From assembly GCF_023101665.1 (NCBI RefSeq), contig NZ_CP082162.1, positions 1-64,000 of the forward strand: DNA of 64,000 bases, given 5' to 3'. This DNA comes from Bradyrhizobium sp. 195 (GTDB lineage: Bacteria > Pseudomonadota > Alphaproteobacteria > Rhizobiales > Xanthobacteraceae). The notes under the pieces were generated by a model that worked only from the letters and a program-made list of their open reading frames with translations, searched no databases and was not told the origin of the DNA. The stretch's first letter is position 1. Every line of letters begins with the position of its first letter. Both the position numbers and the translations under genes were made by a program. Positions 25,038 to 58,877 of this stretch are shown in pieces.

Positions 25038-25325
25038 TCAGCGGAACGTCGAAATCCAAAAAATGATCCTGGATGGCGCGTATCGGAAACAACCTCCCCG
25101 GTCGGCTTGATTGCGTCTGCCCGTGGCGTCCGCGAGCATCGCGGCGCGATGCTTCGATATTTGCTCTAGGGACAGCCCGGCGATGACTGCGTTCGACCCA
25201 GGACGCGAAGTCTCAAAGCTCTGGATGAACGCCGGTAAAACGAGCCGCAATCCGTGGAAAACGTCGTCGCTCTCCTTGGCGAACCCGTCTGCAGCGGGCA
25301 ATTCATCATGTGCGTTGGAGTGCAT
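25038..25325 (-). CDS. Hypothetical protein
   Basis: 95 residues, ATG start, about 60 bp from a divergent membrane-protein gene. Third-position bases are mostly G or C, as expected for real genes here, and the composition (A-K-E-S-D-D-V-F-H-G-L-R-L-V-L-P-A-F) is protein-like. No ribosome-binding site stands out and I do not recognise a family. Confidence 0.4.
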   Translation of the reverse strand: MHSNAHDELPAADGFAKESDDVFHGLRLVLPAFIQSFETSRPGSNAVIAGLSLEQISKHRAAMLADATGRRNQADRGGCFRYAPSRIIFWISTFR

Positions 25326-25385
25326 TCATTCGTCGATGGGCGTCGGGCCATCCTGATACCTGGCGCGGCGGTCCGGCTGGATGAG

Positions 25386-26330
25386 ATGTCGATGGTCGAT
25401 TGGCGGCGCGGAGGTTGGACGGGGAGCGTCAACCGGTGGGTCCGGCGGGAAGTGCACGAGCACATGCGGTCGAACCCGGCGGCTTCCGCGGCGCGCTACG
25501 ACATCGGCGTCCGCGCACTCAGATATGCCTTCCGGGTCGGAACGTTCCGCCGTTTCGTCGGCCTGTATCTTGTTGTCGATCTGGTCTTCCTGGCTGCGGA
25601 GGCAGTCGCGGCCTGGACGGCGCCGGACTCTCTGCCATCGTGGACGGCGTCGGGACCGCCCGGCATCGACCTTAAGGGCCTGGTGCTCAACGTCTCGAGC
25701 TATTTGCTGAGTACCCAGGTGGGCGCTCTAGGAGTCGTCTCCCTGGCACTTGCCCTCGTCACCCTCGTCGCGCAGCGTGAGGGTTCGTCCACGGACGTGC
25801 AGCTCTACCATCACGAGTCCTTATCGTTCGAACTCGTGGCGAGCTGCGTCGCGCTACTTGCCGTGCTTTGCGTGCAGCTATTATGGCCGTTGCAGTTCCT
25901 CCTGCACCGGTTGTCGCTCGGGACTGACCTTCAGGTCTTCAAATTGGGATTGCTGGGCATCCATGTGGGGTGGCTGCTCGTAAACCTGTGCGCGGTTGCC
26001 CATTTCATCGTGACCACGTTCCGGTTCGTGCAACAGTCGGCCCGAGAGCGCCTGCGCGAGCGATACACCGCCAACGTGGTTCTGCCGCTCGAGATGACCG
26101 AGCGTCTCCGCCAACAGCTTTACGGCCTAGCCAACAGCGAGCTCATTGAAGCCAAGGTCGATGCGGAGGAAGGACCGGACGTCATGTTCGGCACGGATTT
26201 CGGCGAGCCGAGCGTAGTCGAAATCGAGTCGACGTTCGCCAACCCGACGGCCTTGCACGACTTTCGCATGATCGGGGGACAGCCACCATCATGCCCCCTT
26301 GCACGGAGCAGGGCCCATTACGGCATCTAG
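25386..26330 (+). CDS. Multi-pass membrane protein, unknown, probably C-terminally altered
   Basis: 314 residues from the ATG at 25386 (a second ATG two codons on is possible; the frame is open further 5'). At least four hydrophobic helices: F-V-G-L-Y-L-V-V-D-L-V-F-L-A-A-E-A-V, a GALGVVSLALALVTLV helix, SCVALLAVLCVQLLWPLQFLL, and LGLLGIHVGWLLVNLCAVAHF. The cytoplasmic part (R-L-R-E-R-Y-T-A-N-V-V-L-P) follows. The last 15 residues look random and the ORF runs into gene-free sequence, so a longer ancestral protein may have been cut. Confidence 0.6.
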   Translation: MSMVDWRRGGWTGSVNRWVRREVHEHMRSNPAASAARYDIGVRALRYAFRVGTFRRFVGLYLVVDLVFLAAEAVAAWTAPDSLPSWTASGPPGIDLKGLVLNVSSYLLSTQVGALGVVSLALALVTLVAQREGSSTDVQLYHHESLSFELVASCVALLAVLCVQLLWPLQFLLHRLSLGTDLQVFKLGLLGIHVGWLLVNLCAVAHFIVTTFRFVQQSARERLRERYTANVVLPLEMTERLRQQLYGLANSELIEAKVDAEEGPDVMFGTDFGEPSVVEIESTFANPTALHDFRMIGGQPPSCPLARSRAHYGI

Positions 26331-29408: not shown

Positions 29409-29456
29409 TTGGTGGGCCCGGCAGGACTCGAACCTGCAACCAGACCGTTATGAGCG
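29409..29456 (-). other. att-site remnant: 3' part of tRNA-Met/Ile2(CAT), copy 1
   Basis: Read on the minus strand it gives the anticodon loop CTCATAA with the 3' stem strand CGGTC, a perfectly paired T arm (GCAGG-TTCGAGT-CCTGC), acceptor strand CGGGCCC, discriminator A and CCA. The 5' half is missing. The CAT anticodon fits elongator tRNA-Met or the lysidine-modified tRNA-Ile2. A near-identical copy lies at 37145-37192. Confidence 0.85.
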
Positions 29457-30353: not shown

Positions 30354-30567
30354 GGAAATGCGTCGACTGCGTCACCGCGCGGTACGCGCCCAAATGATTT
30401 GAGCGGAAAGAATTTCCACCCAGGCGTCAGGTAAACCGGCAGTGCATAAGGCACTGGCGGCGGGACGGTGCCGCTCTCGTGATGATCATTCAGGATGAAT
30501 GCAGCAGCAGGGGAGACGCAATACGGAATGGGAATTTGGCGGAAGCTCTTTTCATCTCGAGGAAATC

Positions 30568-31350
30568 ATGGACGACATAACCAACTCCTCAAAGCGGCTC
30601 GATGGATCGCTTCACTTTCCGGTTCTGGTAATCGTCGAACCGCTCCTGTTGCCTCGCACATGTATTCTGAACGTCCTCAGGCGGGAATTGGCGGAATTCG
30701 AGATCCTCGACATGGCAACGGTCGAAAGCCTGGACTCCACGTCAACCCGCGATGTTCGTCTGGTGGTGCTGAGTATCGCAGACAAGCCCATCGACGATCC
30801 CTCGGTTGAGGGCAGTCTCGCCTTCGTCGCGGAGTGTTGTCCCAACGCCGCCGTTGCAGTCCTGTCGAATCATGACGACGAGCCGACCGTGCAGGCCGCG
30901 ATGCAGCGGGGCGTGCGCGGCTTTCTTTCTACCTCGCTGCCGATCGAGATCGCCATAGCTGGCCTGCGTCTTGTCCTGGTCGGCGGCGTCTACAGGCCGT
31001 TGCCCGTCGCCGGGATGAACAGGATACCGGATTTCGAGGCGCCAGATGCACGCGGGCTTGCGCGCGCATATCTTGTGAACGAGGGAGCCGGAGTGACTAT
31101 CGAAAGGAGCGTGACGGATCTCACGCCTCGTGAGCAACAGGTTCTGGCGGAATTGGAGCTCGGCCTGCCCAACAAGCTGATCGCCGCCAAATTGAACCTG
31201 TCGGAAAGCACAGTCAAAATGCACATCCAGCATATCATGCGGAAATGTGCTGCGCACAATCGGACGGAAGCCGTGCTCCGCTGGCGCGGCCGGTTGCCGG
31301 CGCAGGGGCGCGACCACGACCCCGGCGCAGGTCCAATGCAGAAGACTTAG
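30568..31350 (+). CDS. LuxR-type regulator with degenerate receiver domain
   Basis: 260 residues; ATG follows CGAGGAAATC. The C-terminal LuxR/FixJ helix-turn-helix is typical: LTPREQQVLAELELGLPNKL then I-A-A-K-L-N-L-S-E-S-T-V-K-M-H. The N-terminal half folds like a receiver (V-L-V-I-V-E-P, G-V-R-G-F-L-S). At the expected phospho-acceptor position the strand reads RLVVLSIADK with Ser, not Asp, and the first acidic pair is reduced to one Glu. Phosphorylation-independent control is therefore likely (inference). It converges with, and overlaps by four bases, the secretion adaptor gene, and may regulate that cluster. Confidence 0.85.
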   Translation: MDDITNSSKRLDGSLHFPVLVIVEPLLLPRTCILNVLRRELAEFEILDMATVESLDSTSTRDVRLVVLSIADKPIDDPSVEGSLAFVAECCPNAAVAVLSNHDDEPTVQAAMQRGVRGFLSTSLPIEIAIAGLRLVLVGGVYRPLPVAGMNRIPDFEAPDARGLARAYLVNEGAGVTIERSVTDLTPREQQVLAELELGLPNKLIAAKLNLSESTVKMHIQHIMRKCAAHNRTEAVLRWRGRLPAQGRDHDPGAGPMQKT

Positions 31351-32819
31351 TCCTCTCTGAATGCACCACGGAAGCTGTCGAGCAGGGGCCTGAGCGCGTA
31401 GAGAGCCACGGTACCGCGCCCTGTCGTGATGAACACTTGAACCGGCATGCCGGGGACGATCTGGATGTCGTTTGCGGCGATCTGCGCGTCGTCGATCCGG
31501 ATTTTCGTCGCGTAGTATGGCTGGTCGGTACGCTTGTCGAGGAGCCGGTCTGCGGACACGTGCACGACAGTTCCCTTCAGGCGAGGCACGCGACGCTGAT
31601 TGTACGGTACGAGGTGAACCTCGGCATTGAGGCCGGGATGAACCACATCGATATCCTCGGGCCTCAGGCGCGCGCTCACGATGAGACGGTCTTGCCGGGG
31701 CACCAGGTCCATGAGCGGAGCGCCCGCTCCGATGACGCCACCGGCTGTATGAATCCGCAAATCGGTTATCACGCCGTCCTCTGGCGCCTTGACCTCCGTT
31801 CGCGATAGCTGGTCCCTGGCCGCAAGCAACCGCTCGCGGAGCTGGAATATCTGGTTCTGTGCTTCACGAAGCGACTGTGCGATCTCGTTCTGCCTCTCGC
31901 TCTCGAGCTTGAACAAGGTGGCCTGCTGTTCGCTGATGACTTGCGCGGCGCGGGAAATCTGCGCGGCGATCTCGCCGCGGCGGCCCTCAACGTCGGCCAG
32001 CTCCCGCTGCAGGTTCAGAAGCCGCGGCCTCCGTTCGAGCCCCTTGTTGACGAGGGTCGCGACCATATCCAGCTCCTCCCGAACGATGTCGACCCGCTGC
32101 CCGGTGGCGGTTTCCTGAGCCTTGAGACCTTCGATCTCCTTCTCGACTTGACGCCTTCGTTCGCGAATGACCGCAAGCTGCGACTCGTGAACCTGCAGGC
32201 GTGCCTGGAAAATGAACTGCTGCGCCGACACCGCAGCGGCGGCCACCCCGCTCTGCTTGCTGTCCTGTTCCAGCGCGTCCGGGATTGCGATCCTTTCGAA
32301 TCTCTGCTGCTCGGCTTGAAGCCGTGCTGCACGAGCAGCTGCGTCCCAAAATTGGCCTTGAAGGCTTTGCATCTCCGAGCTCGCCCGGGTATCCTCCAGC
32401 GCGACCAGCGTTTGGCCGGTTCGCACGATATCGCCATCCGAAACCAGGATCTTGCTGACGATGCCGCCTTCCAGATGCTGGATCGTCTTCCGGCTCGATT
32501 CCGATTCCACGACGCCGGCGGCGATCGCGGCGCTCTCGAGAGGCGCTAGGCTCGCCCATGTACCAAGCCCCAGCATGAAGCAGAGCACCAGCAGATTGCC
32601 CGCGACGGTGATAGCGCGAAGCCTTCCGCGTGGCGAGGTCGGCGTAGGCGTCGAGCACCATGGAAATTCCAGAGGCTCGAAATCGTCGATTGCGGTTACC
32701 ACGACGCCAGATCGTCGGGCGGGCGGGGGGCACACCGGCGCTCGCATGAGCCGGTCCCAGATCATGGGAAGTCTCGAGACGGCAGGATGCTTCCAGATGG
32801 TGAGAGAATTCCAGATCAT
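31347..32819 (-). CDS. HlyD-family type I secretion membrane-fusion protein
   Basis: 490 residues. A cytoplasmic N-terminus of about 68 residues precedes one transmembrane helix (about 69-91). The HlyD landmarks follow: an A-x-G-V-V-E-S-E-S-S-R-K-T-I-Q-H-L-E-G-G-I-V lipoyl half, a long coiled-coil hairpin rich in Gln, Arg and Glu (about 170-345), the second lipoyl half, and the beta-barrel tail ending I-V-P-G-M-P-V-Q-V. It bridges the inner-membrane ABC exporter to an outer-membrane TolC-type channel, which is not encoded in this window. It overlaps the ABC gene by four bases. Confidence 0.93.
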   Translation of the reverse strand: MIWNSLTIWKHPAVSRLPMIWDRLMRAPVCPPPARRSGVVVTAIDDFEPLEFPWCSTPTPTSPRGRLRAITVAGNLLVLCFMLGLGTWASLAPLESAAIAAGVVESESSRKTIQHLEGGIVSKILVSDGDIVRTGQTLVALEDTRASSEMQSLQGQFWDAAARAARLQAEQQRFERIAIPDALEQDSKQSGVAAAAVSAQQFIFQARLQVHESQLAVIRERRRQVEKEIEGLKAQETATGQRVDIVREELDMVATLVNKGLERRPRLLNLQRELADVEGRRGEIAAQISRAAQVISEQQATLFKLESERQNEIAQSLREAQNQIFQLRERLLAARDQLSRTEVKAPEDGVITDLRIHTAGGVIGAGAPLMDLVPRQDRLIVSARLRPEDIDVVHPGLNAEVHLVPYNQRRVPRLKGTVVHVSADRLLDKRTDQPYYATKIRIDDAQIAANDIQIVPGMPVQVFITTGRGTVALYALRPLLDSFRGAFRED

Positions 32820-34561
32820 GGCGCAACCTGCGAAGTAACCTGGGGTCGGCTCAGGTGCCGTTCAAAGATGTCCTCGCTGTCGCCGAACGCGGCGACCGCA
32901 CCGTCTTCCATGATGGCAATCTTGTCCGTGGCGGCGAGGAGACCCATCCTGTGAGTGACGACGACAAGGATGACGCCCGCGAGCTTCATGCGCTCGATGG
33001 CATCCAGGAGCATTCGCTCGCCCCCGTAGTCGAGGCTGGCGTTGGGTTCGTCGAGAACGATGAGGCGTGGACTGCCGAAAAATGCGCGGGCAAGACCGAG
33101 GCGCTGCCGATACCCGCGTGAGAAGATTGTTTCACTGTGAACCACCGTGTCGTAACCCTGCGGCAGGCGCATGATCGCCCCATGGATTCCGGCGAGCTTG
33201 GCCGCGTCGACGACCTTCCGCCGGTCCGCATCTTCAAGGCGTGCGATGATGTCGTTGATGGTGTCGCCGATCAGATTGATGTCCTGGGGGAGATATCCGA
33301 GGCCGTCGCCGTTTCGGCCCTCGCGAAGCAGCGAGACGTCGGTATTGTCGAGGAGGACACGGCCATGCGTCGGCATCGACAGCCCGGCGATCACCTGGCC
33401 GAGCAAGGACTTGCCTGACCCGGACGGACCGATAATGCCAAGGCATTCTCCGGGCATGAGGCTGAAGGAGACGCCGTTCAGCAGAAGATGGTCGGTCCCC
33501 GCAAGCCACACGCCCACATTGTCGACGACGAGGCCGCTTCGCGCGTGCGGCGGGAAAACCCCCGCGCTCTCCTGCCGGGCGACCGGGAATGCGGCGAGAA
33601 GTACGCCGAGCCGCTGACAGGCGCTCACGGCCGTCACGAGTGATTTCCAGCCTGCGACCGCACTTTCGACCGGCGCGAGCGCCCGGCTGAACATCAGCGT
33701 AGAAGCAAAGATGATTGCCGGACTTTTTCCGTGATCGAGGACGAGCCACGCGGCAGCCCCCATGATCAAGACCTGCGACAGCGCGCGAACCGGCTTGGCG
33801 GCCAGTGAGACGATCTCGCCTCGCCGGAGTGCCACATCGTGCTCTCTGCGCGCGTGCTGCGCGTCACGGTGGATCATGCGCGCAGCGCTATCGAACATTC
33901 CCATGGCGCGGATCATGTGGATGTTGCCCGCGGCAGTCTGAAGGCGACCGTAGCTTCTGGAGAGCGCGGCGCTGGACCTGAGCAAAGCGTCTTCCGTGAC
34001 CAGCTCTCCGGCGACCGTGAGTGCGAATAGGAAGGCGACGCAACAGGCGCCCACCACGCCAAGCAGGGGATGGATCAGAACGAGGACAAGGAGGAACAAG
34101 GGCGCCCAGAGCGCGTCGAACAGCATCGTACATGAGCCGGACTCGACGAACTGGCGCAGCACGGTGAGATCCCGATATGCGCTCGATGCTTGCGTCCAAT
34201 CGCTGCGAAACGCCGATTCGAGGCCGGCCGAAAGCACGCAGGGACGAAGGCGATCGTCGAGCCAGGCGCCGAGGCGTCCAAGGACGGCGCGCCGCAATGC
34301 ATCGAACATGCCGCCGACGACCACTGTGATCGCGACTATGAGCGTGAGCAGGAGCAACGTGTCGCCGCTCCGGCTCGACAACACCCGGTCGTAGATCTGA
34401 AGAAGATAGATGGAGGGTGCAAACAGTAGCAGATTGTAACTGCAGCTATATGCGAATACGAGACCTAGCGGTCCCACGCAGGACCGGAGGGCTGTGTGCA
34501 GTGGCGTCCGGATCTGCGGCAGGATGGGCAACCGAATAGGCGGCATCAGCATGATCGTCAC
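32816..34561 (-). CDS. PrtD-like type I secretion ABC transporter (permease-ATPase)
   Basis: 581 residues, GTG start at 34561 (the ATG at 34552 is an alternative). An N-terminal membrane domain of about 320 residues carries six helices. The nucleotide-binding domain has Walker A GPSGSGKS at residues 378-385 and Walker B R-L-I-V-L-D-E-P-N-A-S-L-D. The ABC signature reads FSRGYRQRLGLAR (residues 480-492), where LSGGQ is standard, so the signature is strongly altered. Closest in style to PrtD/AprD exporters that export proteins with C-terminal signals. The likely substrates are the Gly/Asn-rich proteins encoded directly upstream. Confidence 0.9.
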   Translation of the reverse strand: MTIMLMPPIRLPILPQIRTPLHTALRSCVGPLGLVFAYSCSYNLLLFAPSIYLLQIYDRVLSSRSGDTLLLLTLIVAITVVVGGMFDALRRAVLGRLGAWLDDRLRPCVLSAGLESAFRSDWTQASSAYRDLTVLRQFVESGSCTMLFDALWAPLFLLVLVLIHPLLGVVGACCVAFLFALTVAGELVTEDALLRSSAALSRSYGRLQTAAGNIHMIRAMGMFDSAARMIHRDAQHARREHDVALRRGEIVSLAAKPVRALSQVLIMGAAAWLVLDHGKSPAIIFASTLMFSRALAPVESAVAGWKSLVTAVSACQRLGVLLAAFPVARQESAGVFPPHARSGLVVDNVGVWLAGTDHLLLNGVSFSLMPGECLGIIGPSGSGKSLLGQVIAGLSMPTHGRVLLDNTDVSLLREGRNGDGLGYLPQDINLIGDTINDIIARLEDADRRKVVDAAKLAGIHGAIMRLPQGYDTVVHSETIFSRGYRQRLGLARAFFGSPRLIVLDEPNASLDYGGERMLLDAIERMKLAGVILVVVTHRMGLLAATDKIAIMEDGAVAAFGDSEDIFERHLSRPQVTSQVAP

Positions 34562-34693
34562 CGCCTGAAATCGAGGTCCGGCGCACTTGACTGATGGTCA
34601 ACGCAATCCGGCAACGGCATCGGTAGATCTTTGGCGTGAAATCCGGGACCGGCGGCCGCGGCAGCCGGTCCCGCCAGTCGGACGAGCGGCTCG

Positions 34694-35152
34694 TCAGAGC
34701 GTGTCGAGATGGAAGGTCACCCCGCCACCCCATGCGAAGTTGCCGTCTCCGCCATCGCCGCCGATGCCGGCGACAACTTCCTGGTGCTGGTCCACCGCGA
34801 GCTTGTTGATCTGGGTGGCATCCGTGTTGGCGTAGACCTTGGAGGTATCGTAGCCGCTGTAGGACTTCTGGCTGCCGTTCGACTCGGCGTCTCCGCCATG
34901 AGCCTTGGAGAACACCGAGGCCTTGGCGTTGGCGCCGCCGGCATCCCAATCCGCCGTCTGTTTGACGTGATCGCCGGTGCTCACGTGCACGTCGGCGCCT
35001 TCCGCCTTGTTGGTCGGATCGTAGTTGACAGTCGGCTTGCTGATGATGGCTCCCTTGAAAGTACCGTCGCCGCCATTTCCGGCACTTTGACCACCGGTAT
35101 CGATCGATTTGACTTTGATCGTATCCGAGATGTTGATTGCCTTTGGCATCAT
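34694..35152 (-). CDS. Gly/Asn-rich single-module protein, putative type I secretion substrate
   Basis: 152 residues starting at the first of two ATG codons, six bases after GGAGG. It has no signal peptide. Residues about 18-38 (GGQSAGNGGDGTFKGAI) and the C-terminus (V-V-A-G-I-G-G-D-G-G-D-G-N-F-A-W-G-G-G) match the two halves of the repeat module of the neighbouring larger protein. The middle is an Asp/Lys/Ser-rich insertion of about 80 residues. The gene lies 132 bp upstream of the exporter on the same strand. Secretion by that exporter is inferred from absence of a Sec signal, glycine-rich composition and linkage. Confidence 0.7.
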   Translation of the reverse strand: MMPKAINISDTIKVKSIDTGGQSAGNGGDGTFKGAIISKPTVNYDPTNKAEGADVHVSTGDHVKQTADWDAGGANAKASVFSKAHGGDAESNGSQKSYSGYDTSKVYANTDATQINKLAVDQHQEVVAGIGGDGGDGNFAWGGGVTFHLDTL

Positions 35153-35403
35153 TTGAGGCCTCCATCGTTTTGTTGGCTGTCGTGCAACATCCATCCCGAT
35201 CAGGCGGACGCGCACGGCAAGTCTGATCCGCCCGTGCGCGAGAGCGATAGATGTCAAATCGGATACCGTCCGGTTTGATGGGCCTACGTACGAAAGTACG
35301 ACATTTTGTTAGCGGAGGGCGCCTCTGCGCGGGCTTTCCATGCGAAGAGCGGCGACGGCGCGTGCCGCGATGCGATCGGCCATGCGAGCGATGCGATGTT
35401 TCG

Positions 35404-36816
35404 TTATGCCACCAGGTGAAAATCCGACAAGAGATGCGCGGCATCGCCACCCAGCGCGAGATTGCCGGAGCCGCCGTCCCCGCCAACGCCGGCGATCTGG
35501 GTCGCACTCTGGTCGATGTGCACGTTGTTGACCTGATCGGCCACGGCCGTCGAATGTGGACCTGCGATTGCTATGTTGATGGGTGCATAGATCGCGACGC
35601 TGACGTCAATCAGACTGCCCGCAAAATAACCGTTGCCGCCATTGCCAGCGCTGTTCGAACCGGTCGCGATTGTATCGGACCCGCCCCACAGATTATGGGA
35701 GAGAAGGTTTGCATGGCCGCCAGCTGCGGCGTTGTCGTTGCCGCCGTGCCCGCCAATGCCAGCGATCTGAACCGCGGATTGATCCACGGAGACATCATTT
35801 ATCTGGACCGCGTAAGCGCCGGAGCCATAGCCCGCGATTGCGATGTTGATCGGGTTGTACACTACAAACGAGGTATGGACGAGTTCCCCGTGGAACATGC
35901 CGTCACCGCCATTGCCGGCCTGGCTTCCGTCCGTTTGAACGTCAAAGACGCTCGATCCCCAATTGGGGTCGAGCGTGATGACGCTGCCGCCGGCGGCCAC
36001 ATTGCCATGTCCGCCACTTCCGCCGACGCCCGCGATCTGCGTGGCCGATTGGTCGATGTCCACCGTGTTCGACTGACTCGCATGTGCAGTGCCGCCCGAG
36101 CTCGCCAACGCAATATTGATCGGATGATAGATTACCACGGGAGCGTCCACGATCGCACCCGAGAAATGGCCGCTGCCGCCGTTTCCGGCGCTGTTTTCGC
36201 CGCTCGCGATCACGCCGGAGCCTGAAAACGTACTGATGCTCCCACCCGCTGCAATGTTGTTATTGCCGCCATGGCCGCCGACGCCGGCCATTTGAAAAGC
36301 GGATTGATCGACATTCAAATTGTTGGACTGGTTGGCCAGGGCGACCGAGCCGTATCCCACGCTGATCGAAATGTTGATCGGTTCATAGATCAACAGGGAC
36401 GCGTGAATGATACCTCCGTAAAAATGGCCATCCCCGCCGTTCCCTGCCGTGTTCGCCCCACTCTCGACCGAAGCAATGCCCTTCTCGGGAAAGGATGCGC
36501 CGGCAGGAGGCTTCGTGGACGAAACATCCAGGCCTTCTGCGGCGTGGTTGCCGGCGTGGCCGCCCATCTCGCCCCCCGATGGGGAATGTTTGGATTGAAC
36601 CGGGTCGGAGTCTCTATGATGGGTATTCGCGCTCGCGGCGTATGCTCCAGGACCAGCAAACGGGCCGGGACGATGGACCAGGGCGTCACCGCCGACCGGG
36701 TCAGCCACGAACGGAGCACTCGACGCAGGGCCCAATTCGCCCGCGCCATCGTACCCATCGCGGTGATGAGAGGCGTGATGCAGCCGGATTGCATCCGACA
36801 TCCGCGTAAAATCCAT
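35404..36816 (-). CDS. Four-repeat Gly/Asn-rich protein, putative type I secretion substrate
   Basis: 470 residues. The ATG at 36816 is chosen because GGGAGG stands five bases before it; the frame stays open upstream through the tRNA remnant without a comparable signal. The first ~118 residues are His/Gly/Ala-rich and low in complexity. Four tandem modules of about 85-90 residues follow, each reading S-A-G-N-G-G-x-G-x-F-x-G, then I/V-Y-x-P-I-N-I-A-I-A, then D-Q-S-A-x-Q-I-A-G-V-G-G-x-G-G and A-A-G-G. No Sec signal and no canonical RTX nonapeptide are seen. Function is unknown; an adhesive or matrix role is one possibility. Confidence 0.75.
   Translation of the reverse strand: MDFTRMSDAIRLHHASHHRDGYDGAGELGPASSAPFVADPVGGDALVHRPGPFAGPGAYAASANTHHRDSDPVQSKHSPSGGEMGGHAGNHAAEGLDVSSTKPPAGASFPEKGIASVESGANTAGNGGDGHFYGGIIHASLLIYEPINISISVGYGSVALANQSNNLNVDQSAFQMAGVGGHGGNNNIAAGGSISTFSGSGVIASGENSAGNGGSGHFSGAIVDAPVVIYHPINIALASSGGTAHASQSNTVDIDQSATQIAGVGGSGGHGNVAAGGSVITLDPNWGSSVFDVQTDGSQAGNGGDGMFHGELVHTSFVVYNPINIAIAGYGSGAYAVQINDVSVDQSAVQIAGIGGHGGNDNAAAGGHANLLSHNLWGGSDTIATGSNSAGNGGNGYFAGSLIDVSVAIYAPINIAIAGPHSTAVADQVNNVHIDQSATQIAGVGGDGGSGNLALGGDAAHLLSDFHLVA
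35413..36470 (-). repeat. Four tandem ~265-bp coding repeats
   Basis: Start points of the A-G-N-G-G motif recur near 36445, 36185, 35915 and 35650, a period of about 260-270 bp. The units are diverged at DNA level but their protein motif order is the same, so the array grew by duplication and then drifted. Confidence 0.8.
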
Positions 36817-37144: not shown

Positions 37145-37192
37145 TTGGTGGGCCCGGCCGGACTCGAACCTGCAACCAGACCGTTATGAGCG
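37145..37192 (-). other. att-site remnant: 3' part of tRNA-Met/Ile2(CAT), copy 2
   Basis: Matches copy 1 (29409-29456) at 47 of 48 positions and in the same orientation. The single difference (C for A) breaks a T-stem pair, so this copy could not be part of a functional tRNA. The 5' half is missing here too. The two copies bracket the type I secretion cluster. Confidence 0.85.
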
Positions 37193-45363: not shown

Positions 45364-48300
45364 CTAGCAGTTGCCGTGGTTTGGCTTCCATTCCAATCCC
45401 GAAACTGAGTTCAGCTCCTCAACGAGAGTCTTGGCGTCTTGCAGATCTGGCGTATCCCGACCTTCGATGAACCACGTGTATACTGGGTTCATCAGGGACG
45501 TGGCTTCGAAGTACCTGCCTTCGTTGATCCAATGCCGAGCGAGACAAATGGAGGTACGCAACTCCCACCAGCGGGCCTGCTGTTGCCGCGCGATCGCCAA
45601 GGATCGCCGCAGCTCGGCCTCTGCCTGGTCACTTCTGCCGAGACCTAGATTGATGGTGCCCCGGAGACGGTACAACTCGGCTTCAAAGAACCTCTCACCT
45701 GTTGTTTGGGCGAGCTGAACGCCTTCGTCCAGCAAACGAAGTCCAACTTCCGGCTCTCCGAGCTTGGCATGGGCAAGGGCGAGATGGCCCAGGTAGAGAG
45801 TTCGGCGGCCACGTTCAGAATTGCGGTAAGTTGCCGCCAAGGCGCTGCGCATCTGGTCGATCCCGGCTTGAACGTCTCCTGCTTGGGCTAATAGGGCTCC
45901 ACGGAAAAAACGTGCTCTTCGTTCGATCGCCGCGAATTCATGCTCAACGCTGAGTGATATCGCCTCGTCGGCGTGCGCCAAGGCGCGCTGGGCGTCGCCG
46001 CCGATTATTCCCATAATGACTATGTTCCCCAGAGCCAGGGCAGTTGTGAAGCTTTGTTGCCTCGTCCGAGCAAGAGTTTCAGTCTGCTCGACCATCGTTG
46101 CAGACTGTTCAGGATAACCAAGCACTAATAGAGTCGACGAGAGCCACGCTAGGCTGTTCACCGCGTCATCCACTCCAAACCTGCGATAGGTCGATATCGT
46201 GGCTGGATTCGTTGAGCACAACGAGAGGGCTCGCTCTAAGTGGTTGCGCGCGTCCGCGAACGCGCCTGTGCAATGCAGCGTCTGTCCAATGAAGCGTGTG
46301 GCTAGGACGGAGACGCCGGGATGATCATACTCGGCGGCCAACGCAAGGCAGTGGCGGGCATCCTCGAGCGCTGTGCTATACTCCGCGCGCATGCTGTGGG
46401 CTAGGTAGTTACCCCATAGGATCGTCATTCGTTCTTCTAGGGTGGCACTTTCGCCAAGCAGCGCGCCAGCCCGCGAGAAGACCCGCGACGTTTCAGGCGC
46501 AGCGTCGCCCTCAGTCGCGGCGACTGCAGGCCCAAGAGCCAGATAGAAATCCAGTTCCTTGCGATCGCGTTGTGACGAGCTCCGCAGCTGTTGGATCAGC
46601 TCCAGCCCTCGCGCCAGATGCTTTACGGCCTCGGCATTGGAGGAGCGGCTGAGCGCACGCTTTCCGGCCTTGAGCCAATAATCCGTAGCCTGTTCAAGCA
46701 GGCCGGCTTCGGTGAAATGGTGTGCAAGGATTTCGGGGTCGTTCACGGCGGCAATCTGGAATTCTTGCTCAATGACGTGCGCTATTTGAGCATGGAGTTG
46801 CCGCCGCCGTCTTTTCAGTAAACTTTGATAAGCTGCATCTCGCACCAATGCGTGCTTGAATGTGTACACGGCATCCGGCAAGTCACCTTGACGGAAAATC
46901 AGTCCTGCCTGCTCGAGTTCAGAGAGGGACTGCTGCAAACGTGTTTCCTCTCGAGTGACCACCGCTCGTATCAAGCAATAGGAAAAGTCACGACCGATGG
47001 TGGCGCCGATTTGGGCGATCTCCTTCACTGAATGCAGGCGGTCGAGCCGAGCCATGAGGGAATCGTGAAGGGTTTCCGGGATGGCGAAAGGCGGTAACGG
47101 ACTCCCGAGTTGGTAGCGATCTTGATCTTCAACCAGAAAGCCTGTTTCGAGAACAGCCTTCGTGAGCTCCTCTACAAAAAGCGGATTCCCGTCCGTCTTT
47201 GTTATGATCTGTTTTATCACGTCGGTCGGAAGCGCGCGGCCATTTGCCACCTGGGTGGCCACACCTTTGACTTCGTCGGGGTTGAGTCGTCCTAACGTCA
47301 GGCTTCTGACATTTGAAAGACCCGTCCAAGCAGCCTCAAACTCGGGTCGAAAAGTAACCAGTACAAGCATAGGCAGCAGACGGGCTCGCTCTACGATGAG
47401 GTCGAGCAATTCGAGCGTGGTGTTGTCGGCCCAGTGAACATCTTCGATGAGCAAGAGGATCGGCTGTTTGCGCGAGCAAATCTCGAAGTGATCAAGCAGC
47501 GCGGCAAGCGTGCGTCGACGCTGCTGTGCGGGACTTAGCTGCAGCGCCGGATAACGGCCTTCGAATGGAATCGACAGCAACGCGGCAAATAGTGCAGCGA
47601 CGATCTCGACTTCCGGCCCTCTCAACGCGAGCAGCGATTCCAGCTTATCAAGCCGCTTCTCGGCCGTATCCTCCGCCTTAAACCCTGCGCTTCTCTCCAA
47701 CTGCTCGACCACCGGATGAAGTGCACTGTTGGCGTGATAAGGAGAGCATTGATAACGAAATTGCAGATGTGGTCGATGCTTGCCTGCACGTTCCGTTAGA
47801 GCCGTTGCAAGCCGCGATTTGCCTATACCTGGCTCGCCGGAGATAAGGACGATCTGACCTTCGCCGGCCCAAGCTAAATCCTGACGTTCCAACAGGAACT
47901 CCAACTCAGAATCTCGGCCGATGAGATGGTTGAGCTCTGCCGGACGCACCGCCTCAAAGCGGCTCTTGGAGGCCAAGAGGCCCTGAACGACCCACGCGCT
48001 CACGGGCGTGCTGATGCCCTTGAGCTGGTGGGCGCCCAAATCGCGAAGATCAAAGATGTCGGCAAGAAGCCGGCGCGTCGAGTCCGCGACGACCACCGTA
48101 TTCGGCTCGACCAAGGCTTGCACGCGAGCCGCGACATTCGGAGCGCCTCCAACCACGGAATGCTCCCGAAGTTTGCCCTCGCCGCCGAGGTCGCCTACGA
48201 CCACCATTCCCGTAGCGATGCCGATGCGCACGGCAAGAGGCTCTCCTGCGCGCGTTTCAAGCCGGGCGACAACAGCCACGATATCTAGTGCCGCCCTGAC

Positions 48301-48744
48301 CGTTCGTTCGGGATCGTCCTCGTGTGCAATGGGATAGCCGAAATACGCAAGGATGCCGTCCCCGCGAAAGTCGGCGAGAAAGCCGTCATAGGAGCGCGTT
48401 ATACGAGCACAAGCGGCGTGATAGGCATCGATGACGGCGCCCATATCTTCCGGGTCAAGTCGTGCCGCCAAAGCGGTCGAATCGACTAAGTCACAGATCA
48501 TCACCGTGAGATGGCGGCGTTCGGCGTACGGCGCAACTGCAGCGTTCCTGACAGGTGAGGGAGGGCTAGGAGGAAGTGCACTTATCCCGCTCATGAGACG
48601 CTTCCGGTCTCCGAGCGGGATACCGATCTTTTCGAAGTCGAGTTCCGTTAATTGCGGCAGCACATCGCAATCTATGGCGTTCGCGATGAACAGGGACTCA
48701 TGCCGTCCCAGTCCCAACCCTCTCAGCCAAGTCCTGATTTCCAT
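45364..48744 (-). CDS. SAM / class III adenylate cyclase / AAA ATPase / TPR multidomain regulator
   Basis: 1126 residues. Order: N-terminal SAM domain (about 3-55, T-W-L-R-G-L-G-L), class III nucleotide cyclase domain (about 76-250) with metal Asp in M-I-C-D-L-V-D-S-T and F-R-G-D-G-I-L-A-Y-F-G-Y-P, then an AAA/STAND ATPase module with Walker A GEPGIGKS (303-310) and L-L-L-I-E-D-V-H-W-A-D, and a long C-terminal TPR region. Such proteins make cAMP (or act as sensors) under control of the ATPase and TPR parts. Abundant in Bradyrhizobium; the ligand is unknown. Confidence 0.9.
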   Translation of the reverse strand: MEIRTWLRGLGLGRHESLFIANAIDCDVLPQLTELDFEKIGIPLGDRKRLMSGISALPPSPPSPVRNAAVAPYAERRHLTVMICDLVDSTALAARLDPEDMGAVIDAYHAACARITRSYDGFLADFRGDGILAYFGYPIAHEDDPERTVRAALDIVAVVARLETRAGEPLAVRIGIATGMVVVGDLGGEGKLREHSVVGGAPNVAARVQALVEPNTVVVADSTRRLLADIFDLRDLGAHQLKGISTPVSAWVVQGLLASKSRFEAVRPAELNHLIGRDSELEFLLERQDLAWAGEGQIVLISGEPGIGKSRLATALTERAGKHRPHLQFRYQCSPYHANSALHPVVEQLERSAGFKAEDTAEKRLDKLESLLALRGPEVEIVAALFAALLSIPFEGRYPALQLSPAQQRRRTLAALLDHFEICSRKQPILLLIEDVHWADNTTLELLDLIVERARLLPMLVLVTFRPEFEAAWTGLSNVRSLTLGRLNPDEVKGVATQVANGRALPTDVIKQIITKTDGNPLFVEELTKAVLETGFLVEDQDRYQLGSPLPPFAIPETLHDSLMARLDRLHSVKEIAQIGATIGRDFSYCLIRAVVTREETRLQQSLSELEQAGLIFRQGDLPDAVYTFKHALVRDAAYQSLLKRRRRQLHAQIAHVIEQEFQIAAVNDPEILAHHFTEAGLLEQATDYWLKAGKRALSRSSNAEAVKHLARGLELIQQLRSSSQRDRKELDFYLALGPAVAATEGDAAPETSRVFSRAGALLGESATLEERMTILWGNYLAHSMRAEYSTALEDARHCLALAAEYDHPGVSVLATRFIGQTLHCTGAFADARNHLERALSLCSTNPATISTYRRFGVDDAVNSLAWLSSTLLVLGYPEQSATMVEQTETLARTRQQSFTTALALGNIVIMGIIGGDAQRALAHADEAISLSVEHEFAAIERRARFFRGALLAQAGDVQAGIDQMRSALAATYRNSERGRRTLYLGHLALAHAKLGEPEVGLRLLDEGVQLAQTTGERFFEAELYRLRGTINLGLGRSDQAEAELRRSLAIARQQQARWWELRTSICLARHWINEGRYFEATSLMNPVYTWFIEGRDTPDLQDAKTLVEELNSVSGLEWKPNHGNC

Positions 48745-56120: not shown

Positions 56121-58877
56121 ATGTCAACCATCGAGCGAATCACCTCGTGGGCTGCCCGCCTACGTACAGGCTTGCCAGGGCAGTCCACATTCGACGGCGC
56201 AGCGCGTCCGAGGCGCCGGACCGCCTCGACGCGCCCAATTGTCGTTCTCGTGCTATGCAGTGCATTCCTGATCGCGCTGGTGGTGGGCGTGATCTCCCTG
56301 ATCCTGTCTAACCTGCGTCACCACGCCATCGAACAGAGCAAGCAGCAGCTGCTGGCTACCGCAACCGTGCTTGCCCGGCAGGCGGCCCGCGACTTCGAGT
56401 CAATCGGTCTTATTGATGCCAGCCTGATCGAATACATGGAAACACTCGCCATCGTTTCCGATGAGCTCTACGAGCGCGCCATGGTGGGACGCGGCATTCA
56501 CCTAATGCTGAAGGACAGGATCAGCGGCTTCCCTCACATCGGCGCGGTCATGCTAATCGGCGCCGATGGCAGGCTCATCAATTCGTCGCAGGCCTGGCCA
56601 ACCCCACAACTCAATTTCGCTGGTCAGGACTTTTTCGAGGCGCTGAAGGCCGACCCGCGATTGGGCTCGATGCTTGGCAAACCGACGCGGGATCGCGAGA
56701 CGGGCGCCTGGACCACATATTTCGCCCGTAAATTCAGGGGATCGAACGGCGAGTTCCTCGGCCTGGTTGTCGGCACGGTCAAGTCGCAGTACTTCGAGGA
56801 ATCTTACGCAGCTATCGCGCGCGGGACCGATGAGTGGATCGCACTGTTTCGCGAGGATGGCATGATGCTCGCGCGCTATCCGCATATCGATTCCTTTATT
56901 GCACAACCCTTTGTCCACAGCCTCAGCGGCGGGACGACGCAAGGGTCCAGCAGCGGCGCGGCAGGGCAGCGCCATGTGCTTGATGATTCGGAGCGGTTGA
57001 CAGCACAGGCGCGGCTTTCCAACCTTCCGATCAATCTGATTGCCAGCACGACTGTCGTCGCCGCGCTCGCGGACTGGCGGACCGAGGCGGGGTATCTGAT
57101 CGGGCTCTCTATAGTCCTCGTCGTGGCGATCGGCGGTACCGGCGCCGTCGTTGTGCAATTTTTTCGCCGGCAAAGCATGCAGCTCGATTCCACGCTGAAC
57201 AATCTGTCGCAAGGCGTCTGCATGTACGACGACCACCGCCGCCTGATTCTGTGCAACGATCGCTATGCCGAGATGTACCATCTGCCAAATGAACTGACAC
57301 GGCCCGGAGCCGCACTGCGCGAGATCCTCGAGCATCAGATTTCGCTCGGTCCCTATCCGGGAGGCAGCCCTGATAAGTATGTGCCCGAGATGATGGCTAT
57401 CGTGATCGCCTGCAAACCGGCGAGTACCGTGACGGAATTCTCCGACGGGCGGGCTATACTAGCTGTGTTTCGGCCCGTGCCGGGTGGCGGCTTTGTCACC
57501 ACCGTAGAGGATATCACCGAGCAAAAACACGCCGAGAAGCGGATCGCGCACATTGCTCATCATGACTCACTAACCGGTCTGCACAATCGCGCGGCGTTTT
57601 CCGACCATCTGGCGATGACCATTGACGAGAGTCTACGCGCGGCCGGGACGTTTGCAATCCTGTGCCTCGACCTCGACCGTTTCAAGGAGGTCAACGACCT
57701 TTACGGCCATCTGGTCGGCGATGCACTGCTGCGCGAGGTGGCGCGGCGTCTGCAAGCCGTTGCCGATGGTGCCTTTCTAGCACGCGTTGGCGGAGACGAA
57801 TTCATCGTGATCTCTATCGGAGACGCACGGGGGACGGCTGTCGGTCAACTGGCTCAGCAATTCAGGACCGCGCTCAGCGGCGACATTGAGATCGCCGGAC
57901 GGCAGGTGCGCATTGGACTGAGCATCGGGATCGCTTCCTTTCCGATTGATGGGACCGACCCGACGACCCTTCTCGCCAACGCGGATGTGGCACTCTACCG
58001 CGCTAAGGCTGAAGGGCGCGATACGATCCGATTCTTTGAGGCCGACATGGCTGCGCAATTGCGCGATCGGCGCGAACTGCAGCACGATCTACAATCTGCT
58101 ATCGCGAACGACGAACTGCGACTCGATTTTCAGCCGCTGGCAAGCATCCGTGGCGAGATCGTGGGTTTCGAGGCGCTGGTCCGGTGGCACCATCCGAGCC
58201 GCGGCGTGGTCGCACCCGGTGTTTTCATCCCACTCACGGAAGAGAACGGGCTGATCGTCACGATGGGCGAATGGATTCTGCGTGCTGCGTGCCGCGAAGC
58301 TGCCTCCTGGCCGAACCAGTTGCGAATTTCCGTCAATCTGTCGCCGGTGCAGTTTCGGAACGATGGCATCGTGCGGCTCGTTCACGAGACTCTGATCGAC
58401 ACTGGATTGGACGCTGGTCGGCTTGAGCTCGAGATCACGGAAGGCGTTCTCATCGACGACTTTTCCCGTGCAGTGTCGATCCTGCGGCGCCTCAAATCGC
58501 TCGGTGTGCACATCGCGCTCGACGATTTTGGCACGGGCTACTCGTCGATGTCCTATCTGCAGGCGTTTCCGTTCGACATGATCAAGATCGACCGCAGCTT
58601 CATATCGAACCTCGAACGCAGCGCACAATCGAAGGCCCTGTTGCGTGGCGTCATCGGACTAGCGCGCGGGCTTGAGCTTCCGGTGACCGCTGAGGGCGTC
58701 GAGACGCGAGCCCAGCTCGATGTTCTCACCCGTGCTGGCTGCGATCTCGTGCAGGGCTTCCTAATCGGAAGGCCTGCGGCAATTGAGGGCTATGCGGAAG
58801 TCGTGGGTCGGCCAGCTAGTCTGGATCAGCAGGGCATTCGGGCGGGCCAGGCCTCGGCGGCACGGGGCAAGAGATGA
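56121..58877 (+). CDS. Cache-PAS-GGDEF-EAL c-di-GMP turnover protein
   Basis: 918 residues. A transmembrane helix (about 39-63), a periplasmic Cache-type sensor (about 70-315), a second helix (about 325-350), a PAS-like domain (about 360-465), GGDEF domain with intact GGDEF at 557-561, and EAL domain with EAL at 684-686 plus DDFGTGYSS and K-I-D-R-S-F-I. Both catalytic motifs are intact, so it could make and degrade cyclic di-GMP. The upstream context is a porin remnant. A solute-binding protein gene starts 40 bp downstream in the same direction. Confidence 0.93.
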   Translation: MSTIERITSWAARLRTGLPGQSTFDGAARPRRRTASTRPIVVLVLCSAFLIALVVGVISLILSNLRHHAIEQSKQQLLATATVLARQAARDFESIGLIDASLIEYMETLAIVSDELYERAMVGRGIHLMLKDRISGFPHIGAVMLIGADGRLINSSQAWPTPQLNFAGQDFFEALKADPRLGSMLGKPTRDRETGAWTTYFARKFRGSNGEFLGLVVGTVKSQYFEESYAAIARGTDEWIALFREDGMMLARYPHIDSFIAQPFVHSLSGGTTQGSSSGAAGQRHVLDDSERLTAQARLSNLPINLIASTTVVAALADWRTEAGYLIGLSIVLVVAIGGTGAVVVQFFRRQSMQLDSTLNNLSQGVCMYDDHRRLILCNDRYAEMYHLPNELTRPGAALREILEHQISLGPYPGGSPDKYVPEMMAIVIACKPASTVTEFSDGRAILAVFRPVPGGGFVTTVEDITEQKHAEKRIAHIAHHDSLTGLHNRAAFSDHLAMTIDESLRAAGTFAILCLDLDRFKEVNDLYGHLVGDALLREVARRLQAVADGAFLARVGGDEFIVISIGDARGTAVGQLAQQFRTALSGDIEIAGRQVRIGLSIGIASFPIDGTDPTTLLANADVALYRAKAEGRDTIRFFEADMAAQLRDRRELQHDLQSAIANDELRLDFQPLASIRGEIVGFEALVRWHHPSRGVVAPGVFIPLTEENGLIVTMGEWILRAACREAASWPNQLRISVNLSPVQFRNDGIVRLVHETLIDTGLDAGRLELEITEGVLIDDFSRAVSILRRLKSLGVHIALDDFGTGYSSMSYLQAFPFDMIKIDRSFISNLERSAQSKALLRGVIGLARGLELPVTAEGVETRAQLDVLTRAGCDLVQGFLIGRPAAIEGYAEVVGRPASLDQQGIRAGQASAARGKR

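Follow-up and report, generated by a model that had tools for sequence, protein, structure and literature searches.

Four type I secretion systems have been described in Rhizobium leguminosarum 3841 by Krehenbrink and Downie and, as far as the cited parts of that 2008 report go, no substrate was found for two of them, TobDE (RL0623/RL0622) and ToaDE, and no known type I substrate lies within 10 kb of either (PMC2275737). The same source describes a B. japonicum protein with similar neighbours that is 52% identical to TobD (PMC2275737). Here we analyze a locus of this type in Bradyrhizobium sp. 195, within a stretch of 64,000 nucleotides that forms the start of contig NZ_CP082162.1 (the window). 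Five genes lie within 30568-36816. On the minus strand, in order of transcription, these encode a protein of 470 aa with four tandem modules (LRG, candidate substrate 2; 35404..36816), a protein of 151 aa with one split module (SML, candidate substrate 1; 34694..35149), a PrtD-like ATP-binding cassette (ABC) permease/ATPase of 581 aa (32816..34561) and a HlyD-type membrane fusion protein of 490 aa (31347..32819), whose gene shares 4 nt with that of the ABC protein. The fifth gene, on the plus strand and convergent to the exporter genes, codes for a LuxR/NarL-type regulator with a degenerate receiver (30568..31350; the open frame starts at 30499), and a conserved stem-loop (34644..34673, minus strand) follows the stop codon of SML and precedes the exporter gene. 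TolC is not among the five genes, and the flanks and the genome were not searched for one. The original prediction, made from the letters of this region, had described a complete ABC plus HlyD exporter and a regulator beside the two proteins, and all of these parts were located in the window.

On sequence comparison, the locus is probably a dedicated exporter-plus-cargo system, a judgement that does not extend to any role of the cargo in a matrix, and SML and LRG are very likely exported by it. The TobDE match and the conserved hairpin are additions to the original prediction.

Exporter identity and joint occurrence with the candidate cargo

The best model for the exporter was TIGR01842, matched over nearly its full length with 496.7 bits, and because this score is just under the cut-off (510.15) we call the protein PrtD-like; its ATPase domain matched PF00005 with 85.9 bits. 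The adaptor exceeded its own cut-off clearly (TIGR01843, 378.4 bits against 208.65). The nearest solved chain by sequence was 5l22_B, named as an ABC transporter of the HlyB subfamily, which we take to be Aquifex PrtD. The window exporter is 52% identical to the orthologue at both R. leguminosarum loci in our set (L087 and L100), and its orthologues outside Bradyrhizobium are 50-54% identical to it. In strain 3841 mscL is RL0602, about 20 locus tags from tobE (PMC2275737), and in four of five Rhizobium genomes mscL was found on the same contig as SML, 20-26 kb away in the direction of HlyD, the distance being 93 kb in the fifth (L100). The 52% identity together with the mscL synteny thus identifies the window exporter and adaptor as orthologues of TobD and TobE, that is, by sequence, as the TobDE system, and the SML/LRG family therefore offers candidate TobDE substrates. 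In strain 3841, SML and LRG would be expected at about RL0624 and RL0625. Regarding these tags, tobDE is only mentioned in the available text of PMC10925705, the accessible main text of PMC11406972 contains no RL062x tag, and RL0626 appears in the cited portion of PMC5118466 as a growth-impaired conserved hypothetical.

The joint occurrence of exporter and candidate cargo was followed in two genera. We searched 98 Bradyrhizobium genomes with the exporter, a profile of the LRG modules and an SML profile, and 120 Rhizobium genomes with the exporter orthologue and SML; these searches start with a loose first pass, in which divergent homologues may be missed, and the genome counts carry no correction for kinship. 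The exporter orthologue was present in 35 of the 98 Bradyrhizobium genomes, with 61-100% identity to the window protein (among the matches listed, paralogues reached at most 39%), and LRG and SML were likewise each found in 35/98, the three sets being the same 35 genomes. In Rhizobium, exporter orthologue and SML occurred in 62/120 genomes each, again as identical sets; here the orthologues were at least 77% identical to the R. leguminosarum exporter and the next group at most 42% among the matches listed. Pooling both genera, exporter and SML are both present in 97 genomes and both absent from 121, and no genome carries one alone. Within each genus the locus is distributed patchily, with no exception to joint presence. 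Furthermore, SML and exporter lie on the same strand in all 34 Bradyrhizobium genomes in which they share a contig, separated by 86-360 bp between match ends and with LRG matches 779-2024 bp away (the 35th genome has SML and exporter on two contigs), and the same holds for 62/62 Rhizobium genomes, with gaps of 208-321 bp.

A second route led to the same gene set. Contigs from one genome per species were scanned with SML alone, and the 80 matches kept out of 82 confirmed ones gave 79 loci: 50 from Bradyrhizobium, 24 from Rhizobium, 3 from Phyllobacterium and 2 from further Rhizobiales. All five genes were found by tblastn with the five window proteins at 78 of these loci, over spans of 5.7-7.6 kb; at the 79th, L031, the contig ends just past SML. 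SML is 5' of the exporter and on its strand at 78/78 loci. Outside Bradyrhizobium, 22/29 loci have LRG in the opposite orientation to SML and the regulator on the other side, still clustered, and 7/29 keep the Bradyrhizobium arrangement, so that the gene set holds together through rearrangement. In wider samples, the module profile was positive in 4 of 347 order-level genomes and in the same 4 among 398 phylum-level genomes, the two samples overlapping. One of them is the window genome (G000), and the other three (G265, G288 and G120) all carry the exporter orthologue, at 52-62% identity. The original prediction had put SML and LRG forward as putative dedicated cargo and had pointed to homologues standing away from an exporter as the finding that would speak against it. 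No SML without the exporter orthologue was found in the 98 and 120 genomes, nor any LRG without it in the 98, and the proposal of dedicated cargo gains support from the co-occurrence in 35/98 and 62/120 genomes and at 78/79 loci.

These data bear directly on the alternative that SML and LRG are intracellular proteins, mere neighbours of an exporter that secretes an unlinked substrate. In its favour, the related PrsDE system of R. leguminosarum exports at least 13 proteins encoded in diverse regions, according to the cited part of PMC2275737. However, mere neighbours would hardly be expected to give 97 genomes with both, 121 with neither and none with one alone in two genera, nor to leave SML directly 5' of the exporter at the 22 loci where other neighbours are inverted, and we consider this alternative very improbable. 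Several points nevertheless count against a dedicated exporter-cargo pair. The genomes are related, and therefore the 218 observations are not independent. At L048 the HlyD match is in two pieces and at L059 the exporter match is short; these loci may be broken, and a tblastn match does not by itself show that a gene is intact. In addition, the tobD mutant (tobD::Tn5, A896) is described in the consulted sections of PMC2275737 as unchanged in supernatant proteins, which were compared in one medium, and in biofilm, swarming, plate growth and nodulation. The same sections report no supernatant change for single mutants of TobDE and ToaDE, and for double and triple mutants none beyond the prsD effect (PMC2275737).

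SML and LRG modules, fold and export signals

In LRG, AGNGG motifs lie at residues 124, 210, 300 and 390, spaced by 86, 90 and 90 aa, and mark modules of about 88 aa that are 51-57% identical to one another; the LRG of L098 (Rhizobium-like) was split into only two modules and was uninformative in this comparison. Matches to the module profile place module 1 at 36229..36465 (E 1.1e-31), module 2 at 35974..36204 (E 2.4e-33), module 3 at 35704..35937 (E 2.0e-33) and module 4 at 35434..35664 (E 1.8e-33), all on the minus strand. SML aligns with both halves of one LRG module, with about 50 extra residues in between. The motif spacings and this alignment agree with the earlier description of one protein with four modules of about 88 residues and another with a single split module. 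The suggestion that the shared module halves define one family with two architectures also fits, as both architectures are present at all 79 loci. The RTX nonapeptide GGxGxDxUx is absent from SML and LRG of the window, in line with the earlier statement that the module is not an RTX repeat, and neither protein contains Cys. Additionally, two homologues of LRG in the database, P0035 (741 aa) and P0074 (769 aa), have about eight modules each by eye, and thus module number varies beyond the sampled genomes; their tails, LLDHSL or LLDHAL, resemble the HLLDHA tail present in 10/79 LRG.

At E<=0.001, LRG matched 803 of 7990 scored candidates from the database and SML 239 of 323, numbers that make chance families of these two proteins untenable. 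No family in Pfam, NCBIfam or PHROG matched SML or LRG of the window, no PDB sequence matched either at E <=10, and no curli-type family appeared when 35 LRG and 40 SML members were compared with Pfam up to E 5. A limited literature search found no paper naming these proteins. As far as that search shows, this is a cargo family without published description, served by an exporter of known type. Some LRG homologues carry the name PE-PGRS in the source databases, a group with which they share Gly/Asn-rich GGxGG segments. The Pfam matches of LRG members include no PE domain, and the label looks compositional.

With respect to fold, the LRG modules are predicted as all-beta in the best of five models, but the other four models were poor. 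Residues 4-116 of LRG (36469..36807, minus strand) were modelled without confidence (predicted local distance difference test, pLDDT, below 50). The solved folds nearest to the LRG model include the amyloids FapC and CsgA, in very weak matches with a Foldseek match probability of 0.03. These matches raise the alternative that the system exports a functional amyloid, namely an extracellular fibre of stacked beta modules like curli or Fap that would pass through a type I ABC exporter. LRG would be its subunit and SML a nucleator or cap, the hairpin would set cargo above exporter, and a LuxR-type regulator acting independently of phosphorylation would take the place of CsgD. We consider such a fibre unlikely, and the Foldseek probability and the four poor LRG models lower its chances further. 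A beta fold of the modules is itself put in doubt by the single good LRG model among five and the weakness of its fold matches, and for SML there is no usable structure model (pLDDT 45.2).

A Sec-like hydrophobic N-terminus was not found by Kyte-Doolittle analysis in either protein, the highest 19-residue mean within the first 60 aa being 0.62 for LRG and -0.05 for SML, and the earlier reading of both as proteins lacking a Sec signal is thereby upheld. In the cited part of a description of RTX-type substrates, their C-termini are depleted in K/R and enriched in D/L/F/I/V (PMC8861453). Here, the last 20 residues are free of K/R in 79/79 LRG and 71/79 SML, and in the last 10 residues of 79/79 LRG and 63/79 SML an Asp has L/F/I/V no more than 3 residues after it, this Asp pattern being counted without a chance control. 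A C-terminal export signal seems somewhat better than an even bet on this evidence. Its likelihood is lowered by a conserved N-terminal motif, [ST]D.[IV]. This motif occupies residues 8-11 of SML and 7-10 of LRG in the window, and occurs in 49/50 SML and 34/50 LRG of Bradyrhizobium and in 29/29 SML and 0/29 LRG outside that genus. The signal could therefore be N-terminal, at least in part. Other observations also argue against the C-terminal assignment: LRG averages only 0.9% K/R, and so a tail free of both is expected anyway (0.83 for 20 residues), 8/79 SML tails contain one K/R, and the SML tail varies in length between lineages.

Ahead of the module, SML has a GG pair in 49/50 Bradyrhizobium members and in 0/29 elsewhere. 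This pair looks like a double-glycine leader site and raises the alternative of a microcin-type bacteriocin operon with SML as the peptide. A small gene ahead of an ABC/HlyD pair and the N-terminal position of the GG pair would suit such an operon, and bacteriocin exporters are known in rhizobia, as stated in the cited sections of PMC2275737. On the other hand, the ABC protein has no C39 peptidase domain among Pfam matches up to E 0.1, the GG pair is missing in all 29 SML outside Bradyrhizobium and the 470-aa LRG is kept at all 79 loci, which together make a bacteriocin operon most improbable, the least probable of the alternatives weighed here.

Hairpin, regulator and genomic surroundings

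The hairpin after SML is conserved. Of 79 sequences (the window and 78 loci), 74 had a best hairpin of 11 pairs or more, compared with 26 of 395 random 130-nt pieces taken from these sequences. Five were weaker, one of 9 pairs located elsewhere (L040) and four of 10 pairs (L056, L058, L061 and L096); at L059 the best hairpin is placed further on. Covariation was tested with 16 distinct Bradyrhizobium versions of one length and register and 500 shuffles. In these versions 99.0% of hairpin cells pair, versus 92.3% in shuffles, 16 cells are double-changed versus 4.5, and the covariation score was reached by 0/500 shuffles; slid controls were far lower. Two of the five measures, however, did not stand clear of shuffles and weaken the case for covariation: the pairs with double changes (5 versus 3.0, reached by 18/500 shuffles) and the further pair types (11 versus 10.7, not raised). 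Other genera have hairpins of different sequence at about the same position. The hairpin has no T-run. In RTX operons, a hairpin is found between hlyA and hlyB. Such operons are depicted with rho-independent termination hairpins in the cited part of PMC6950323, and the likely role here would accordingly be to hold the level of cargo mRNA above that of the exporter mRNA. Action as an attenuator, or as an mRNA stabiliser through protection of the 3' end, seems somewhat more likely than not.

The regulator matches PF00196 (GerE) with 67.9 bits. Its receiver is degenerate. In tblastn matches at 78 loci, the site of the phospho-acceptor Asp is S in 31, D in 24, N in 16, G in 5, T in 1 and E in 1, whereas T occupies the site of the conserved Lys in 66/79 matches. 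Control by phosphorylation is therefore unlikely as a general rule. That this LuxR-type protein acts on the locus itself is probable.

The cassette is flanked by copies of a tRNA 3' fragment in direct repeat, at 29409..29456 on the left (found with a 25-nt core pattern; anticodon CAT by eye) and at 37145..37192 on the right, both on the minus strand and identical at 47 of 48 aligned nt. ARAGORN detected no whole tRNA in the window. A similar motif was seen at 7/99 loci (L011-L109), and in two of these, L043 and L045, it flanks the cassette on either side; the five-gene cassette may travel as, or sit between, tRNA-targeted islands. Near the contig start, 3276-5222 encodes a coupling protein of the TraG/VirD4 type, from a conjugative type IV system, and the left part of the window may thus be a piece of an integrative or conjugative element. 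Two further genes for ABC transmembrane domains lie on the same contig beyond the window, within 55 kb (G000:C2:79126-79917 and 88130-88897), and the second of these matches the window exporter at 37%. Elsewhere in the window, 45364-48744 joins an adenylate/guanylate cyclase catalytic domain with SAM, AAA and TPR domains, 56121-58877 encodes a PAS, GGDEF and EAL domain protein of cyclic di-GMP turnover, and 25254-26330 is an open frame of 358 aa in which several stretches look hydrophobic by eye and for which Pfam gave no match at E 1e-5.

Proposed role and comparison with known systems

We propose that the PrtD-like TobD and the HlyD-like TobE form an inner-membrane exporter, which would presumably rely on a TolC-like channel encoded elsewhere. 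In this scheme its substrates would be LRG and SML, which lack a Sec signal, would leave the cell in a single step and would fold outside it into glycine-rich beta modules. LRG could then be the repeat subunit and SML its companion (a cap, a nucleator or a second subunit), with the hairpin after SML holding cargo mRNA above exporter mRNA and the LuxR-type pseudo-receiver regulator controlling the locus. Surface or matrix material is the likeliest use of such modules, a role for which we would give slightly less than even chances.

The strongest competitor to this structural role accepts export and differs on purpose, the cargo being binding or signalling proteins directed towards the plant or other bacteria. 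Two observations fit this alternative. nodA is present in 27/35 locus-positive versus 25/63 locus-negative Bradyrhizobium genomes (Fisher p 6e-4, without correction for kinship), and all 79 loci come from Bradyrhizobium, Rhizobium, Phyllobacterium or other Rhizobiales. A plant-directed cargo is, however, at odds with the absence of nodA from 8 of the 35 locus-positive genomes, with the location of nodA on another contig in the window genome and with the normal nodulation of pea by the tobD mutant, as given in the cited part of PMC2275737; moreover, Pfam and NCBIfam place neither SML nor LRG in a known enzyme or toxin family. Nodulating strains carry the locus more often than others, but it is neither required by nor confined to them, and life on root or soil surfaces would fit better than a role in symbiosis only. 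A binding or signalling cargo seems less likely than not, and we rank it a little below a surface or matrix role.

If SML and LRG are secreted, type I secretion would gain a new family of non-RTX substrates and, with cargo and exporter together, a matched pair in which to study how proteins without RTX repeats are recognized. If they form fibres or matrix, this would be a structural role of a new sort for type I secretion, in root-associated bacteria. TobDE, for which 2008 left mutants without cargo or phenotype, now has two specific cargo candidates.

Among known systems, curli and Fap have their own outer-membrane export routes. FapC and CsgA are likewise repeat proteins with beta modules and conserved Gln/Asn and occur among the very weak fold matches, but they give no sequence match. 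HasA is a non-RTX type I substrate. It shares with the window proteins the lack of a Sec signal, a candidate C-terminal signal and a gene ahead of the exporter, but no sequence relation was found in PDB, and the window has repeats and a two-protein family. With PrsDE of rhizobia the window system has in common a PrtD-like ABC protein and a HlyD-like adaptor; the cargo of PrsDE, as described in the cited sections, is broad, mostly unlinked and of RTX and Rap/cadherin-like types, whereas the window cargo is linked and non-RTX (PMC2275737). The closest likeness is to TobDE itself, in the 52% identity of the exporter, the similar neighbours and the mscL synteny; and where the cited parts of the 2008 paper give neither substrate nor phenotype (PMC2275737), two adjacent unannotated proteins are here proposed as its cargo.

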